This document shows, one piece after another, positions 1 through 6,190 of a stretch of 6,338 bases of DNA (its first letter is position 1; every line of letters begins with the position of its first letter). Position numbers and translations under genes: made by a program. The DNA is from Halanaerobiales bacterium (GTDB lineage Bacteria; Bacillota_F; Halanaerobiia; DY22613), in the NCBI GenBank assembly GCA_023128035.1, contig JAGMES010000220.1, positions 1 to 6,338 on the forward strand, in the 5' to 3' direction. Below the pieces are notes generated by a model that had not been told where the DNA came from, searched no databases, and saw only the letters and a program-made list of their open reading frames with translations.

Positions 1-2
1 CA

Positions 3-107
3 ACAATTATGTCTTATATCGGAACTGCTAATAAACATAAAATCGATGCTTTTACTGCAATAAAGGCGGCAGTAACTAACCAGTCAAAAGCTTTACTTTT
101 TAGTTAG
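3..107 (+). CDS. C-terminal fragment of a probable IS66-family transposase (cut by window edge)
   Basis: An open frame enters from the left edge and runs 34 codons to TAG at 105-107. Its residues include SYIGTANKHKIDAFTAIKAA. That pattern of an aromatic-I-x-T-A stretch, a basic patch and a short A-I-K-A helix resembles the extreme C-terminus of Firmicute IS66-type (TnpC) transposases as I remember them; I could not run a search. If right, an insertion sequence lies mostly outside the window to the left. The other two forward frames close quickly (TAA at 61-63 and 29-31). The last 15 bases overlap, tail to tail, the stop end of the small membrane-peptide gene on the other strand, so little room is left for a transposon end between them. 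The fragment is short and the family call is a pattern judgement. Confidence 0.5.
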   Translation, partial: TIMSYIGTANKHKIDAFTAIKAAVTNQSKALLFS

Positions 108-203
108 CGACTGAATAGTTACCATATTATAAATAATAACTGTACTTAAACCTAAAATTAAACAAATAAATAGGCAAATAACTATTTTTGATCTTCTGTT
201 CAT
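93..203 (-). CDS. Small single-span membrane peptide, 36 aa, unknown function
   Basis: ATG at 203-201 is preceded by TCAGGAG (AGGAG at 211-215) with a 7-nt spacer, a strong ribosome binding site that supports a real gene despite its size. The product begins MNRRSKIV, has one hydrophobic segment at about residues 7-26 (VICLFICLILGLSTVIIY within it) and ends QSLTKK before TAA. Positive charges before the segment suggest an N-in membrane peptide with a short tail outside. Two cysteines (residues 10 and 14) lie inside the hydrophobic segment. It is the last gene of an apparent operon with the secreted-peptide precursor and the thioredoxin-like gene, with 63 nt separating it from the precursor gene. 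Its final codons overlap the end of the facing transposase fragment, so the original C-terminus may have been altered by that junction. I do not recognise a family. Possible roles are an immunity peptide, a membrane partner or a remnant; none is shown. Confidence 0.55.
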   Translation of the reverse strand: MNRRSKIVICLFICLILGLSTVIIYNMVTIQSLTKK

Positions 204-228
204 TTTTTTACTCCTGACTATCTTTTAA

Positions 229-416
229 GAATAAACTGAGTGATGTGTAATTATTTAATTTTTAACTTAACAACAACCTATATTCTCCCATACGTAAACT
301 TCATCCGCATATGCTGGTACAATATAAGCACCAAGAATAAGCATAACTATAAAAATTATCATTGTTTTTTTCATGTTATCTCTCCTTTTGACACTCTTTA
401 ACCACTCAGTTTATTC
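229..416. repeat. Perfect 14-bp inverted repeat bracketing the small secreted-peptide gene
   Basis: GAATAAACTGAGTG at 229-242 on the plus strand is repeated exactly on the minus strand, where plus 403-416 reads CACTCAGTTTATTC. The arms are 160 bp apart and enclose the whole peptide gene at 267-374 with its ribosome binding site. The right arm contains the TAA (411-413) that would end the frameshifted thioredoxin-like reading frame. In the transcript the arms could pair and loop out the peptide gene. As DNA they could be the ends of a small mobile cassette or sites for inversion. No target duplication or recombinase is visible. Confidence 0.7.
267..374 (-). CDS. Short secreted peptide precursor, 35 aa, with vicinal C-terminal cysteines
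   Basis: ATG at 374-372 has a near-ideal ribosome binding site, AGGAGA (381-386), 6 nt upstream. The product is 35 aa. It has a two-lysine N-region (MKKT), a hydrophobic core at about residues 5-19, a helix-breaking proline at 20 and a classical AYA cleavage motif at 21-23, so Sec export and signal peptidase I cleavage are expected. The predicted mature peptide is only 12 residues, DEVYVWENIGCC: acidic, with tyrosine and tryptophan, and ending in two adjacent cysteines before TAA. It lies 36 nt after the shifted stop (413-411) of the thioredoxin-like gene, apparently in the same operon. Its thiols and the partner's CXXC motifs suggest that the neighbour oxidises, reduces or otherwise handles the peptide; that is inference. 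It could be an extracellular signal, a metal- or thiol-binding peptide or a small toxin. I recognise no family. A perfect 14-bp inverted repeat surrounds the gene. Confidence 0.65.
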   Translation of the reverse strand: MKKTMIIFIVMLILGAYIVPAYADEVYVWENIGCC

Positions 417-488
417 CAAACATTTTTCTAATGTAGTAAATTGTTTATATGTATTTGCTATCCTATCTAAAACTACATAGGAAGGAAA
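411..488 (-). pseudogene. Out-of-frame 3' tail of the thioredoxin-like gene
   Basis: In the frame one base further on, the minus strand reads FPSYVVLDRIANT followed by YKQFTTLEKCLE and TAA at 413-411. Joined after C195-D-S-C198-K-I-V, for example by dropping one T near 486-488, it yields CDSCKIVPSYVVLDRIANTY. This matches the usual thioredoxin layout of CXXCK, a proline a few residues on, and an amphipathic helix carrying I-A-x-x-Y. The repaired protein would be about 225 aa and end 36 nt before the start of the peptide gene. Even so, the second domain would stop after its first helix, at the edge of the inverted repeat arm (403-416). The break could be a true mutation, an assembly error or, less likely, programmed frameshifting; no recognisable slippery signal is present. 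Confidence 0.6.
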
Positions 489-1089
489 CAATTTTACAAC
501 TATCACAATAATCTGTTGAAAAATATAAAATTAATTTATCTTTACTTTGCAAATTATAATTTGTAGTAAAATAGTTTAATATCTCATGTTCAAAAGGTTT
601 ATCTATAATCTGTTGTAACTTATCAACAATAGCAAAACTATTACTACCGTAAGTTTTAAAAATAACTTTATTTTCATCATCTAAGATCACACAACTTGGT
701 GTTATCTCAGTCAGGATACGACCTTTCAATGAAACATTCATTGAATCAGGGACATCTTGTTTTTTAGTTTTTGTTAAGGGAATTTTATCCTTCCAAACAT
801 TATAAATAACTACTTTATCTCCCTTAAAAAAATAATCTATCTTTTTGCTAAAATCTAAAAAAGATATACATGCAGAGCAAGAAGAAGATAGACTAAACAA
901 CACTTTTAATTTACCTTTATCTAAAATTTTAATTTCTTCATTTTTAAAATCAAAAAAATTTACTTCAAGAAAATTCTCCATAGAATCTAATACTATTGAT
1001 TTATTATCATGTAATCCTGAGAAAATAATATATCCACAAATTACACTAATAAAGAAAAATACTACTAAAAAATATTTTATAATCTTCAT
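463..1089 (-). CDS. Membrane-anchored thioredoxin-like protein with two CXXC motifs; 3' end frameshifted
   Basis: ATG at 1089-1087 follows AGAGG (1096-1100) at a 6-nt spacing. The 208-aa product has an N-terminal hydrophobic anchor or uncleaved signal at about residues 4-24. An extracytoplasmic thioredoxin-like domain follows at about 40-168, with a strand leading into C71-S-A-C74 and a TPSCVILDDE stretch at 130-139 that looks like the cis-proline loop. A second strand, KLILYFSTDY, leads into C195-D-S-C198-K, as if a second thioredoxin domain begins, but the frame stops ten residues later. Reading on in another frame gives a credible continuation (see 411-488), so the gene has probably suffered a single-base indel or sequencing error. 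The likely activity is thiol-disulfide exchange outside the membrane. It is the first gene of the operon with the two small-peptide genes, under the promoter at 1125-1153. TlpA/ResA-like is the nearest general description; exact family unknown. Confidence 0.7.
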   Translation of the reverse strand: MKIIKYFLVVFFFISVICGYIIFSGLHDNKSIVLDSMENFLEVNFFDFKNEEIKILDKGKLKVLFSLSSSCSACISFLDFSKKIDYFFKGDKVVIYNVWKDKIPLTKTKKQDVPDSMNVSLKGRILTEITPSCVILDDENKVIFKTYGSNSFAIVDKLQQIIDKPFEHEILNYFTTNYNLQSKDKLILYFSTDYCDSCKIVSFLCSFR

Positions 1090-1124
1090 TTTTTTCCTCT
1101 TTTCTTCTTTTTTTGCATAGATAT

Positions 1125-1153
1125 ATTTTACATTATTATACCTAAGTTGTCAA
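1125..1153 (-). promoter_or_regulatory. Sigma-A-type promoter of the thioredoxin-like/small-peptide operon
   Basis: On the minus strand a perfect -35 TTGACA (1148-1153) is followed by a 17-bp spacer and a -10 TAAAAT (1125-1130, five of six consensus bases). The expected transcript start, near 1117, leaves a leader of about 28 nt. The 8-bp word TAGGTATA occurs twice in the same direction, at 1162-1169 and 1137-1144, one copy just upstream of the -35 and one inside the spacer. These could be binding sites for a regulator not encoded in this window. Confidence 0.75.
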
Positions 1154-1224: not shown

Positions 1225-1611
1225 TCACCCATGCAATACATGAGAAAGACCTTGATTAAACAAACAGAGTATATGCTCATCATCCAATGAATAAAAGACT
1301 GTCCGACCTTCTTTACGGTATTTTACCAATCGATTATTTCTGAGTACCCGTAACTGATGGGAAATAGCTGATTGGCTCATCTGCAACAATTTAGCCAAAT
1401 CACAAACGCAAAGTTCTGTCTGAGATAAAACATGAATTATCTTAATTCTGGTTGGGTCACCTAAAGTTTTGAATATCTCTGCTAAATGTTGATAAGTCTC
1501 CTCATTCAGTTCATCATCTAGACTATTCAAAAGATCATCATGAATTTTACATTCAGTACAAACATCTATTGGTTGCAGATCTTCAGATTTATACTTTTCT
1601 TGATCTTTCAT
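1225..1611 (-). CDS. ArsR/SmtB-family metal-sensing repressor, CadC-like
   Basis: The product is a dimeric winged-helix repressor that releases DNA on binding Zn, Cd, Pb or related ions. I place the start at ATG 1611-1609, because GGGGGA lies 7 nt upstream and overlaps the end of the ATPase gene; an in-frame ATG at 1626 lacks a ribosome binding site. The 128-aa product has an N-terminal CTEC (C18, C21), the alpha-3 motif ELCVCDLA (C68, C70), the recognition helix SQSAISHQLRVLR and a wing KYRKEGRTVFYSL. It also has an alpha-5 site with D111, H113, H124 and H127. The N-terminal pair plus CVC is the CadC soft-metal site. The alpha-5 spacing (i, +2, +13, +16) matches the SmtB/CzrA zinc site, with His in place of the final Glu. 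Its gene comes after the ATPase gene, 1 nt past that stop codon, so both are translated from one message. Its likely operator is the palindrome at 3792-3817. Confidence 0.93.
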   Translation of the reverse strand: MKDQEKYKSEDLQPIDVCTECKIHDDLLNSLDDELNEETYQHLAEIFKTLGDPTRIKIIHVLSQTELCVCDLAKLLQMSQSAISHQLRVLRNNRLVKYRKEGRTVFYSLDDEHILCLFNQGLSHVLHG

Positions 1612-1612
1612 G

Positions 1613-3751
1613 CTACATTCCCCCATTTGCTGAAAACCGCATCATTCGCATCGCATTTAGAATAGCCAGTAAAGCAACACCAACATCTGCAAATACAGCC
1701 TCCCACATAGTGGCAATACCCAAAGCACCTAGTATTAGTACAAAACCTTTCACACCTAATGCAAATATAATATTTTGCCAAACAATCGTTCTAGTTCTCT
1801 TAGCAATCCGAATCGCTTCTACCATTTTCATCGGTTCATCTGTCATTAATACGATATCAGCGGCCTCAATAGCTGCATCAGAGCCTAAACCTCCCATTGC
1901 CACACCAATATCAGCTCGCGCCAGCACAGGGGCATCATTAATCCCATCACCCACAAAGACCAGTTTATCTGATTCAGAAATCATCTCTTCTACCTTATTA
2001 ACCTTTTCATCAGGTAATAATTCTGCATGAACCTGATCAATACCTAACTCTCTTGCTACTTTATTTGCGATCTCTTTACGATCACCAGTCAACATAATAA
2101 TCTTTTCAATCCCTAATTGACGTAACTTTTGCATCGCATCTTTAGAATCTTCCTTTATCTGATCACTTATTCCAATTCGCCCAATATATTTCCCATCTAC
2201 TGCAACATAGATTATAGTGCATTCATCAGAATGAGCCGGATATTCAACTCTATTCATCAACATCAATTTGTCATTCCCTGCAAGAATTTCTTTGCCCTCA
2301 ATTATAGCTTTAACGCCATGCCCAGGAATCTCCTCATATGCCGATCCGCGTTCAATAAATACATGTTCATGATATGCTTCAAGAATAGATTTTGCAATTG
2401 GATGATTAGAATAAGCTTCTGCTAAAGCAGCATAACGAAGTAATTCTTCTGATGTCACATTTTCTACAGGCTCAATCTTATTTACCTTAAAAACTCCTTT
2501 AGTCAAAGTTCCAGTCTTATCAAAAACAATGGTTTTTACTTTATTCAAGGCTTCAAGATAGTTACCGCCTGTTATCAAAATACCTTGCTTAGATCCTGCT
2601 CCAATACCACCGAAAAAACCAAGTGGAATAGAAATCACCAATGCACAGGGACAGGATACAACTAGAAAGATTAAACCACGATAAAGCCAATCTTGAAATA
2701 CTGCTCCTTTAATGAAAAGTGGTGGAAGAAGAGCTATTGATAGAGCAGAAATTACTACAGCTGGAGTATAGTACCGTGCAAACTTAGTTATAAAATTTTC
2801 TGTCTGTGCTTTTCTTGAATTTGCATTTTGTATCATATCCAAAATTTTTGCTACTGTAGATTCACCGAAAGTTTTAGTAACCTTTAGAGTTATAAGACCA
2901 CTTATATTAATAAATCCAGCTAAAAGTTCTTCTCCAGCAACAACTGTTCTTGGTACAGATTCACCTGTTAAAGCTGATGTATCTACCTGAGATTGGCCAT
3001 CCAAAATCACTCCGTCCAATGGAACTTTCTCACCAGGCTTAATAATAATCATCTCATCAATTCCAACTCGTAAAGGATCAACTTGAATTAATTTCCCATC
3101 ACGTTCAATATTAGCATATTCAGGTCTAATATCTAATAAAGCTTTGATTGAGCGTCTTGAACGATTCACAGCTAAATCCTGAAACAGTTCTCCAACCTGA
3201 TAAAACAACATTACACCAACAGCTTCAGGAAATTCTTGAATAGCAAACGCCCCAAAAGTAGCCAATGTCATCAAAAAATTCTCATCAAAAACCTGACCCT
3301 TAAGAATGTTTCTCCCAGCTCTTAACACTACCTCTCCACCAATTATCAAATAACTTATGACAAATAAGCTTAGTTCTACTGGAAATGGTAAGGTAAAGAT
3401 CAAAGCACAAGCAAACAAAATCGCTCCAACACCAAATTGAATCAAATCTTTTTTCCATGTTTCTTCTTCATCATCTGTATGTGTATGATTAGCATGAGCC
3501 TCATATACTTTTACATGGGGCTCCCTCTTAATCACCATCTCCTTCACTTGATCGACAATCTGTGAGGCTATGGAATTTTGAAACTCCACTTCCATCATCT
3601 GATTAACAAGATTAATTCGTACATCACTAACTTCTGCAATCCCTTGAACATCTTTTTCGATCTTAGCTGCACAATTCGCACAGTAAAGCCCCTGTAGATG
3701 AATTTTTTTCTGTGTAGTCTCTTCTTTTACCAACCTTTGTACTAACGCCAT
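1613..3751 (-). CDS. cadA: P1B-2-type Zn/Cd/Pb-transporting ATPase
   Basis: This is a membrane pump that exports Zn2+, Cd2+ or Pb2+ using ATP. The start chosen is ATG 3751-3749, with AAGGAGG 8 nt upstream; the in-frame ATG at 3772 has no ribosome binding site and lies in the leader hairpin. The 712-aa product has, in order, an N-terminal HMA domain with GLYCANC (C24, C27) and a His/Asp/Glu-rich linker (86-97, HANHTHTDDEEE). These are followed by paired membrane helices, the actuator TGES (262-265), the membrane metal site CPC (367-369), the phosphorylated D411-KTGT, the nucleotide-binding HP (450-451) and GDGINDAP (601-608). N660 with K668, and D689 in DVGVALL, match the conserved TM7/TM8 residues of the P1B-2 (CadA/ZntA) group rather than copper pumps. 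All catalytic motifs are intact and the length is normal. The HMA domain ends with the usual Cys pair only, so Cd, Zn and Pb cannot be told apart. It is the first gene of its operon. Confidence 0.96.
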   Translation of the reverse strand: MALVQRLVKEETTQKKIHLQGLYCANCAAKIEKDVQGIAEVSDVRINLVNQMMEVEFQNSIASQIVDQVKEMVIKREPHVKVYEAHANHTHTDDEEETWKKDLIQFGVGAILFACALIFTLPFPVELSLFVISYLIIGGEVVLRAGRNILKGQVFDENFLMTLATFGAFAIQEFPEAVGVMLFYQVGELFQDLAVNRSRRSIKALLDIRPEYANIERDGKLIQVDPLRVGIDEMIIIKPGEKVPLDGVILDGQSQVDTSALTGESVPRTVVAGEELLAGFINISGLITLKVTKTFGESTVAKILDMIQNANSRKAQTENFITKFARYYTPAVVISALSIALLPPLFIKGAVFQDWLYRGLIFLVVSCPCALVISIPLGFFGGIGAGSKQGILITGGNYLEALNKVKTIVFDKTGTLTKGVFKVNKIEPVENVTSEELLRYAALAEAYSNHPIAKSILEAYHEHVFIERGSAYEEIPGHGVKAIIEGKEILAGNDKLMLMNRVEYPAHSDECTIIYVAVDGKYIGRIGISDQIKEDSKDAMQKLRQLGIEKIIMLTGDRKEIANKVARELGIDQVHAELLPDEKVNKVEEMISESDKLVFVGDGINDAPVLARADIGVAMGGLGSDAAIEAADIVLMTDEPMKMVEAIRIAKRTRTIVWQNIIFALGVKGFVLILGALGIATMWEAVFADVGVALLAILNAMRMMRFSANGGM

Positions 3752-3771
3752 AAAAATATCCTCCTTCAACA

Positions 3772-3787
3772 TGACTCACAAGAGTCA
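3772..3787 (-). other. Small hairpin in the 5' leader of the ATPase mRNA
   Basis: TGACTC (3772-3777) and GAGTCA (3782-3787) are complementary around a 4-nt loop, giving a 6-bp stem. It lies between the transcription start and the ribosome binding site. It may stabilise the mRNA or may mean nothing; it lacks a T-run and is not a terminator. Confidence 0.35.
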
Positions 3788-3922: not shown

Positions 3923-4117
3923 AACTCGCTTCGCAGTAAAATTTGCTTAATTGTTTGAAGGCATGGATATACTTAAAATTAGCGACACCTAAGTCAGCTC
4001 AATCCGAGAAAGCTTTCAATTACCAAGAAATTTAACACAGAGCTGACTTTTGAAGGAGCGTTTTTTAAGTATATCCATGCCTTCAAACAATTACCCACAA
4101 ACTTTTAAGCGAAAGTT
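3923..4117. repeat. Palindromic intergenic element with 31-bp perfect arms (MITE-like or structured RNA)
   Basis: Bases 3948-3978 are perfectly complementary to 4063-4093 (31 bp), with GAAGGCATGGATATACTT in the middle of the left arm. The similarity continues imperfectly outward to about 3923 and 4117 (AACT plus TTCGC on the left against GCGAAAGTT on the right). Inside the 84-bp loop a second perfect 10-bp inverted repeat pairs AAGTCAGCTC (3991-4000) with GAGCTGACTT (4040-4049). No protein frame of note is present. The right edge sits 3 bp before the SpoIID-gene stop codon complement, so the element forms that gene's 3' untranslated region. The shape suits a non-autonomous miniature transposable element or a structured RNA. 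Imperfect flanking matches (GAAAGATAA at 3916 against GAAAGTTAA at 4111) might be a decayed target duplication. Confidence 0.75.
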
Positions 4118-4120
4118 AAA

Positions 4121-6190
4121 TCAATATTTCTCCACCATATCTATTCCAGTATAAAAATGATTCAATATCTGATCATAGCTAAATCCAGAATTCGCCATTC
4201 CTGCTGCTGCAACCTGATCCATTCCTACACTATGGCCCCAACCTCCACCATAAAAACGATAGGCTATAAGTTTACCATTTTCAAATTCAGGTCTTAAGAA
4301 AAAGCGATTACTTCGCAAACCACCAAGCTTTGAACGAAGAGAATTTTTCAGCTCAACCTCTCCTTCTGTTCCTATAGCTAAAATGGATATTACACTACCA
4401 CCTTTTCCTCTACCAGTAACTTTTAACTCTTTCAACTCACCAATTTGAAGACGATCCTCAATAAATTTTCGACTAACCTGTCTTTCCCAACGAAAATGAA
4501 TTGAACTAGTGAAATTTGGATCAGCAGAATAAGAATCTGGTTGATTAATAAGCCAATTTTTGAGCTCTGCTGGTTCTAATGGGAATTGATCAACCTCTTG
4601 ATCTTTGAGAGTAGAAACTCCTAAGAGGTATGGCACTGCCATCCCCCACACATCTTTTACATCTTCTGTATGACCTCCTGAATTGGCACTATAAAGCGCA
4701 TTTATCGGACGATCTTTATAAGTCATGATTATTCCTAATGTTTCAGCAACAGCCTGGCGAGTCGAATTTCTTTCCCATCCAATTCCATTATAGGCTGCAC
4801 AATGGACAGTATCGCAAAGATCATATCCTGAAGAACTATGTCTACCTAAATGAAAATATGTGTAAGTTCTAGCTGCTACTGCTTGTACTTTCAAAGCCTC
4901 TAATGGCCATGAAGCAGACATTTCAGATGCGACTACAGAATAAAGATAGTCCTCCACATTAACGATATTAACCAATCTTAAGCCACCTAGATTTGGTATT
5001 AGTTCAAGTTGACCCCGATATTGTCGATCTTCTTTGCCAGACCAGTAATATCCTTTTCCAAATTGAATACCATGAATGAGTATTGGAGCATAACTAATGG
5101 GTTCGATCGTAATAGATTCAGAAAAACGAAGAGGTTTTCCATCAGGATATGATACTAATTCATACTGGCCCTTCTTTTCTTCTGCTTTCCAGATCTGACC
5201 TTCTAGTCCTTCAGCCAATATGTTTCCATTCTTATCTTTAACCTGGAAGGAAGAACCTACACGAAAGAAGATCATCTTTTGCACATCTCCTCCAGATAGT
5301 CCAACCTTGATTTTTTGAATATTCTCCATCTCAGGTAAAGGTTGAATCTCTTTGAAATTTACGTTTTCAGGCAAATCTTTAACCTGAGGAGGTGAAGTTT
5401 GAGATTTAAATCTTCCTGGGAATTCTTTTTCTAACCAAGTTATTTGAGCCTTAGAAAATTGATCCTGCTTATTCTCCGTTATTGCTTTCTCAAGGCGATA
5501 ATAAGCTTTATCATAATCATTTTGTTTTAAATATAATAATCCTAATTGACGTTGTACTCCCTTAAGACTTCCGTCAATTCGTAATGCTTTTAAATAATAA
5601 GTGATCGCCTCATTCTCACTTCCTAATCCTTCATAAATCAAACCTTTCTGAATTGCAGCTAAAGCATATCTTGGGTTTGTTTCTAATGCAATCTCAGCAT
5701 AAGTCAAAGCCTCTTGAATTTTTTCATTTCTCAAATAAATTTTACTAAGATAATAAGATCCTTCTGCTAAAACTACTGAAGAAAGATTTTCATTATTTAA
5801 AAGGTTTTTAAGACCTTTTTCCGCTAAATCTAATCTTCCAAGATTAAAATGAGCAATCTCTAAATACAATTTTATCTCAAAATCCAAAGAATGTTCACGT
5901 AAATAGCGGGTATATTGTTTTACAGCTTGTTCATAATCACCCATTTCTTCATATACCACAGCCAAGTTTATTGCAGCTCGAGAGCCAGGCTCGTAGCGAA
6001 CAATTCGACTATAGTTTTCTATCGCCAAAGCCAGATTACCATCATAATATGCCTGATTTGCCTCCAGATAAATATCCTCAGTCTCAAGATAACCCTGAAC
6101 TTCATCTCGAAAGCCAAAAAAAACTAAAAAAGATATAATGCCTAAAATAATAGTAATTAATATAAATTTCCGGTAATTAAAATTAATCAC
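4121..6190 (-). CDS. Membrane-anchored TPR protein with C-terminal SpoIID/LytB domain
   Basis: This is a probable peptidoglycan lytic transglycosylase acting outside the membrane; SpoIID cleaves denuded glycan strands during spore engulfment. The start is GTG 6190-6188, with GAGGAG 7 nt upstream. The 689 aa comprise a single N-terminal membrane anchor (about 9-27), about five to six TPR units (about 38-240, e.g. AYYDGNLALAIENYSRIVRYEP) and a proline-rich linker (about 262-290). A beta-rich segment (about 292-400) leads into the SpoIID domain to the C-terminus. Key residues are E423 in VVASEMSASWP, aligned with the catalytic glutamate of SpoIID. C459 and C464 in DLCDTVHCAAYNG correspond to the cysteine region known to bind zinc in the clostridial enzyme. 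SGGHTE (504-509) and GGGWGHSVGMDQ (648-659) are also conserved. It is much longer than classical SpoIID (about 340 aa) because of the TPR half, which probably docks partner proteins. It is transcribed alone from 6232-6260. Whether its role is sporulation or vegetative wall turnover is open. Confidence 0.92.
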   Translation of the reverse strand: MINFNYRKFILITIILGIISFLVFFGFRDEVQGYLETEDIYLEANQAYYDGNLALAIENYSRIVRYEPGSRAAINLAVVYEEMGDYEQAVKQYTRYLREHSLDFEIKLYLEIAHFNLGRLDLAEKGLKNLLNNENLSSVVLAEGSYYLSKIYLRNEKIQEALTYAEIALETNPRYALAAIQKGLIYEGLGSENEAITYYLKALRIDGSLKGVQRQLGLLYLKQNDYDKAYYRLEKAITENKQDQFSKAQITWLEKEFPGRFKSQTSPPQVKDLPENVNFKEIQPLPEMENIQKIKVGLSGGDVQKMIFFRVGSSFQVKDKNGNILAEGLEGQIWKAEEKKGQYELVSYPDGKPLRFSESITIEPISYAPILIHGIQFGKGYYWSGKEDRQYRGQLELIPNLGGLRLVNIVNVEDYLYSVVASEMSASWPLEALKVQAVAARTYTYFHLGRHSSSGYDLCDTVHCAAYNGIGWERNSTRQAVAETLGIIMTYKDRPINALYSANSGGHTEDVKDVWGMAVPYLLGVSTLKDQEVDQFPLEPAELKNWLINQPDSYSADPNFTSSIHFRWERQVSRKFIEDRLQIGELKELKVTGRGKGGSVISILAIGTEGEVELKNSLRSKLGGLRSNRFFLRPEFENGKLIAYRFYGGGWGHSVGMDQVAAAGMANSGFSYDQILNHFYTGIDMVEKY

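Follow-up and report, generated by a model that had tools for sequence, protein, structure and literature searches.

In the available part of PMC4919988, PedC, BdbA and BlpGst are exported thioredoxin-like proteins that carry a CXXC motif and are encoded beside a small cysteine-containing peptide. The same part gives co-production of PedC as making recombinant pediocin about threefold more potent, with the MIC going from 1.2 to 0.4 uM, and offers the disulfide role of PedC as a hypothesis. A second kind of cysteine-bearing small gene appears in the accessible part of PMC9094748, which cites Canestrari 2020 for the Cys-rich regulatory sORFs of mycobacteria, short ORFs with adjacent Cys codons that lie in an operon.

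Here we examine a locus from a Halanaerobiales bacterium, contained in a stretch of 6,338 nucleotides that we refer to as the window, in which a membrane thioredoxin-like protein, a secreted Cys-Cys peptide and a small membrane peptide had been proposed to form one operon. The explanation that we favor, tentatively and with somewhat less than even confidence, is that the locus is what remains of a small, AT-rich operon for at least three exported products, in which the thioredoxin-like protein would have acted on the Cys-Cys end of the exported peptide and the third gene was cut by an IS66-family element. The features are collected in the table.

Coordinates of the features of the locus and of its neighbors in the window
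Feature	Position	Strand	Remark
IS66-family right end: transposase C-terminus (stop codon ends 107), terminal repeat CTGAATAGTTAC at 111-122	1..122	+	
Expected 8-bp target duplication CATATTAT	123..130		deduced from 3 relatives; other copy would fall outside the window
Native 27-codon 5′ stump of interrupted gene (MNRRSKIVICLFICLILGLSTVIIYNM...), own ribosome-binding site	123..203	-	IS boundary
14-bp inverted repeat, one arm	229..242		perfect arms
35-aa peptide gene; predicted product DEVYVWENIGCC	267..374	-	A-Y-A cut site (by eye) behind a signal-like N-terminus
14-bp inverted repeat, other arm	403..416		perfect arms
Natural-looking C-terminal end, next frame, via KLFPSYVVLDRIANTYKQFTTLEKCLE	411..506	-	putative; stop at 411
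Membrane-anchored thioredoxin-like protein as read, 208 aa	463..1089	-	Pfam Thioredoxin_2 E 2.3e-4, below cut-off
Promoter-like TTGACA-17-TAAAAT, 11/12 consensus	1125..1153	-	consensus match only
Terminator-like hairpin	1215-1182	-	behind arsR-like gene
ArsR/SmtB-type regulator, ELCVCDL stretch	1225-1626	-	NF033788 E 4.1e-31
Heavy-metal P-type ATPase	1613-3772	-	TIGR01525 E 7.2e-170
SpoIID/TPR protein, 689 aa: TPR repeats and SpoIID/LytB domain in one chain	4121-6190	-	

The ORF list of the window holds three minus-strand ORFs in this order: 1089-463 (208 aa), 374-267 (35 aa) and 203-93 (36 aa). Each start is preceded by a Shine-Dalgarno-like stretch and opens a hydrophobic N-terminus. We filtered starts for a Shine-Dalgarno stretch, an ATG, at least 25 codons and a hydrophobic N-terminal segment, and compared the outcome with 2000 dinucleotide shuffles. 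On the minus strand of 123-1224 the filter passes three starts, those of the three ORFs and no others, and the opposite strand of the same interval has none that passes the Shine-Dalgarno and hydrophobic filter. At least one start passes in 7 of the 2000 shuffles and at least two in 0 of 2000, a figure that serves as a guide only because the thresholds were chosen with the genes already seen.

Signals for transcription are less distinctive. The site at 1153-1125 is the sole 11/12 match among the 8 promoter-like sites found, for which a loose scan of shuffles gives 10.7 by chance, and the single terminator-like hairpin compares with 0.6 expected; that such sites are no commoner here than in shuffles counts against the favored explanation. 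Base composition sets the locus apart, with 23.9% G+C in 123-1130 against 35.1-37.1% in three neighboring genes, which fits acquired or fast-changing DNA. Genes for a transporter, a regulator or a peptidase are absent from the native stretch 123-1153, which also speaks against the favored explanation. The original prediction of a promoter followed by three same-strand genes with ribosome-binding sites is borne out at the level of starts, Shine-Dalgarno-like stretches and an 11/12 promoter-like site. As a set of three genes it holds for the exported look of the products and fails for the third member, an IS66-truncated stump, and its boundary at 93 falls inside the insertion sequence, so that the native part comprises 123-1153.

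The boundary of the insertion sequence can be placed to the base. Positions 3-107 of the plus strand read ...IMSYIGTANKHKIDAFTAIKAAVTNQSKALLFS, then a stop, and this transposase C-terminus is 62% identical over 29 residues to G075 (E 1.5e-7), whose own frame of 125 residues has matches among annotated IS66 transposases (46% in Planococcus, E 5e-24). It is matched in 2 of 398 phylum genomes (E up to 0.1), in 1 of 59 class genomes (E up to 1, at 0.97 only) and, weakly, in three plasmid records, two of which are an annotated IS66 transposase of Acidiphilium (E 0.05). The 12-mer CTGAATAGTTAC stands at 111-122, and nowhere else does the plus strand of the window come within two mismatches of it; an identical 12-mer stands behind the transposase match in L060 and L070, CTGAACAGTTAC stands there in L059, and in the more distant L058 a GTTAC-type terminal motif was not found. 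Of four elements searched for a left end, L067, L068 and L069 have one: they run from GTAAC to GTTAC between identical copies of an 8-bp duplication. In the fourth, L060, no left end could be recognised. Because the elements with both ends close on that final C before the 8-bp duplication, base 122 is the last base of the insertion sequence. The duplications of L067, L068 and L069 (TTTAATTT, TTGAAAAG and AATTATTT) are AT-rich, as is the expected CATATTAT. A DNA search with the first 230 bases of the window returned AT-rich noise only.

Judged from the transposase C-terminus, the GTTAC terminal repeat and the 8-bp duplications of relatives, positions 1..122 belong to an IS66-family element, as its right end. 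Of the 36-aa ORF, the first 27 codons are native, and the last 9 (VTIQSLTKK) together with the stop are DNA of the insertion sequence. Any continuation of the native gene would lie beyond the window. On this sequence evidence the ORF is the stump of a longer, interrupted gene and not a small-peptide gene, and the one-span membrane peptide of 36 aa suggested for this place has to be given up. A mobile element that cuts a gene can thus yield a convincing 'small membrane peptide', which calls for caution.

The 208-aa ORF carries two CXXC motifs, CSAC at residues 71-74 and CDSC at 195-198, and between them a TPSC at 130-133, within a TPSCVILDDENKVI stretch from 130 that we take to be cis-Pro-loop-like. 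The order of a CXXC followed by a loop of this type is as expected of a thioredoxin fold. Family models agree below their thresholds: Thioredoxin_2 (PF13098) matches at E 2.3e-4 with 21.9 bits against a curated cut-off of 27, PF08534 reaches 13 bits against 26.6, and the domain with the first CXXC gives a weak match to PedC_BrcD (TIGR01295; E 8.9e-4, 19.1 bits against 120). Unrelated families score little worse than Thioredoxin_2, namely Cybc1_Eros (E 0.0018) and Toxin-deaminase (E 0.0072). Likeness between the two CXXC regions is at chance level, its score being reached by 176 of 2000 shuffles, and the single-sequence structure model of the protein, with a mean pLDDT of 37.8, is too poor for use. 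A thioredoxin-like assignment is consistent with these sub-threshold matches and is weak. What stands of the earlier claim are the CXXC motifs and the sub-threshold Thioredoxin_2 match; against it are the missed curated cut-off and the unrelated families close behind.

The end of this ORF deserves comment. The 208-aa reading stops ten codons past CDSC, and the next frame offers a natural-looking end whose stop at 411 sits 36 bases ahead of the peptide start, with a codon-position G+C of 0.34/0.25/0.16 (506-411) against 0.30/0.24/0.15 in the main ORF. Such an end points to a one-base frameshift somewhere in about 484-504, just after the second CXXC, and the gene thus probably ends at 411 and not at 463. 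The frameshift may be either a true mutation or an assembly error.

Between this gene and the interrupted one lies the peptide gene, which ends TGT TGT TAA. Read by eye, an A-Y-A before DEVYVWENIGCC would leave a product of about 12 residues with two adjacent C-terminal cysteines, and the tiny exported peptide of the original prediction, ending in Cys-Cys, is retained with its signal-like N-terminus and this predicted site. Its size is one that gene callers can skip. The peptide could also be an unstable product, or one with a role in regulation.

The two arms of the 14-bp inverted repeat stand 160 bp apart and closely flank the peptide gene together with its ribosome-binding site. A similarly spaced 14-bp inverted repeat (20-300 bp) occurs in 19 of 2000 shuffles of bases 1-1160. 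Minus-strand RNA of 220-430 folds better than 200 of 200 shuffles (z -4.2); the fold inside the repeat alone is not unusual (z -0.63), so the strong fold comes from the repeat, and plus-strand RNA of the repeat region also pairs (z -2.5). Rfam gave no match. One could read the 35-codon ORF as a regulatory leader whose tandem Cys codons before the stop sense cysteine, the repeat folding the mRNA and tuning the third gene. The TGT TGT TAA end, the enclosure of the ORF by a repeat found in so few shuffles, the fold of the minus-strand RNA and, as far as PMC9094748 could be consulted, the existence of Cys-rich regulatory sORFs in mycobacteria would all suit such a leader. However, its Cys codons number two only, a leader has no need of a signal peptide, no terminator-like hairpin follows the ORF on its 3′ side, and the fold is ordinary inside the repeat and is matched by pairing on the plus strand; we consider it improbable. 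The same perfect arms, placed so closely around the gene and its ribosome-binding site, might instead bound a small cassette, inserted or invertible, that brought the peptide gene in between its two neighbors. No target duplication was seen by eye outside the arms, one of which covers the place where the first gene probably stops, and the window holds neither a recombinase gene nor further exact copies of the arm. Nor did the searches yield relatives that could reveal the site empty or inverted, and a cassette is in our judgment very improbable.

On the other side of the promoter-like site are the arsR-like gene and the heavy-metal P-type ATPase gene, whose end is overlapped by the regulator start (ATPase first, then regulator). 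With these genes adjoining and a Cys-Cys end on the peptide, the exported peptide and the thiol protein might bind metal and belong with the ArsR/ATPase pair. We give this little credence, since the two groups of genes are separated by a terminator-like hairpin and by a promoter-like site of the locus' own, and base composition differs strongly from that of the ArsR and ATPase genes.

Farther along the window, the SpoIID/TPR protein is 61% identical to its counterpart in G151, a genome that shares its phylum with an uncultured Clostridia record, which makes a Bacillota host probable. The protein is matched in 372 of 398 phylum genomes (E up to 1e-3); among the matches listed, many cover the SpoIID part only and about 30 places span most of the length. 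The gap between the P-type ATPase and SpoIID/TPR genes contains a perfect 31-bp inverted repeat (3948-3978 and 4063-4093, 84 bp between the arms), a stretch for which none of the 59 class genomes has a match at E up to 1e-3. In the nearest relative a different long inverted repeat (L009, about 1138-1351; by eye) precedes the SpoIID gene.

Searches for relatives of the native genes used several approaches, some of which pick up close relatives only. For the thioredoxin-like ORF, 149 pattern stretches in genome contigs contained 0 relatives, a search among 5.8 billion proteins returned the protein itself only, from 2 contigs of which the longest has 32,015 bases, and plasmid and phage records as well as solved structures (PDB sequences) gave 0 matches. 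At E up to 1e-3 none of the 398 phylum genomes matched it, in a search for which no positive was known, so that the empty answer shows nothing. Although 20 of the 59 class genomes match at E up to 1, none holds an acceptable relative: the best match (L017, E 6.7e-4) lies in a stretch that contains a stop and no obvious gene, and the others inspected are TlpA-like or unrelated proteins. A second place, in G364, sits among sugar-transport-like genes. The single viral-contig match covers the N-terminal 44 residues only, on a contig with a terminase-looking protein by eye. G405 (L025 and L071) encodes a membrane-anchored protein of 408 aa that appears by eye to have two redoxin-type domains, among unrelated genes and with a polyketide synthase-like gene nearby; a crude filter found no comparable peptide in its 10-kb neighborhood.

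The peptide has no relative in the collections of proteins, genomes, plasmids, phages and viral contigs searched. Matches to a WEN.GCC pattern in 5 of 398 genomes are attributed to chance because each lies in a frame of 11-26 codons that does not end behind CC. PADLOC returned nothing for the three ORFs, PHROGs nothing under E 0.03, and the literature no operon of such composition, which is weak evidence given the narrow search wording. Because no homologue of any native part turned up in these collections, function is backed by neither conservation nor co-occurrence. An AT-rich island for which homologues were not found, with an IS66 insertion and a probable frameshift, is also what decaying DNA would look like, with chance ORFs beside a mobile element and a functionless peptide. 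This we regard as unlikely, as it leaves unexplained why three starts here combine a ribosome-binding site with a signal-like N-terminus when 0 of 2000 shuffles have even two.

The degraded operon is backed by those starts, by a promoter-like site behind a hairpin, by low G+C, by the weak thioredoxin and PedC_BrcD matches, by the IS66 end and by the C-terminus in the next frame. Such an operon would encode a thioredoxin-like protein anchored in the membrane, a peptide of Sec type that is released as approximately DEVYVWENIGCC and a third membrane or secreted protein, whose gene the IS66-family element would have cut after 27 codons. The thioredoxin-like protein would face outwards and oxidise, reduce or transfer the adjacent cysteine pair of the peptide, a thiol step that we model on the bacteriocin handling thought to be carried out by PedC/BdbA-type proteins, PedC being the closest parallel in function. 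The interrupted gene may have encoded a partner of the peptide for processing, immunity or sensing, and it is this missing gene that would identify the system. The system, as this strain carries it, is probably incomplete or no longer active. The sequence establishes the order of the genes, their starts and the IS boundary; frameshift, export, thiol chemistry and partnership are deductions. A more specific proposal would make this an undescribed peptide system that IS66 has inactivated here. Its membrane thioredoxin-like protein, with its two CXXC motifs, would load or oxidise the Cys-Cys at the C-terminus of a secreted peptide of 12 residues, and a third exported product would be their partner; the chance that this proposal is right is slim. 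Novelty beyond the degraded-operon account is possible, and from one damaged copy without relatives it is not ours to claim.

Set against described systems, the locus shows partial likeness to several. Like a full IS66-family element, the insertion has a transposase C-terminus, a right terminus ending in GTTAC and an expected 8-bp duplication, whereas the window holds its right 122 bp only. The peptide gene resembles the mycobacterial sORFs, as partially consulted, in being a short ORF of an operon with Cys codons side by side; unlike them it has no attenuator-like hairpin behind it, and its signal-like N-terminus and ribosome-binding site mean that it is not leaderless. The NVEALA peptides (PF14055) of Bacteroidetes have TlpA-like neighbors and an -EN(V/I)- string, and likewise are small exported peptides adjoining TlpA-like genes. 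Membership was rejected: the peptide does not match the family model at E up to 10, the family was found in 0 of 59 class genomes (control genomes 1 of 14), and a literature search on it found nothing. With the membrane-anchored thioredoxins of ResA/TlpA type the 208-aa ORF shares an N-terminal anchor, a CXXC and a cis-Pro-like loop; two WCPPC proteins of the class align only weakly (L019, E 0.0027; L020, E 0.0057), and the ORF has CSAC and a second CXXC near its C-terminus. The PedC/BrcD-type isomerases (TIGR01295), BdbA and BlpGst, as far as the source could be consulted, offer the same pairing of a CXXC thioredoxin-like protein with a small Cys peptide. The protein of this locus is by score no member of that family (19.1 against 120 bits), the visible part of the locus is without an ABC exporter or immunity gene, and the peptide differs in its Sec-type leader, its length of about 12 residues and its adjacent cysteines. 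If the pair is real, its exported peptide would be thiol-dependent and far below the known disulfide bacteriocins in size.
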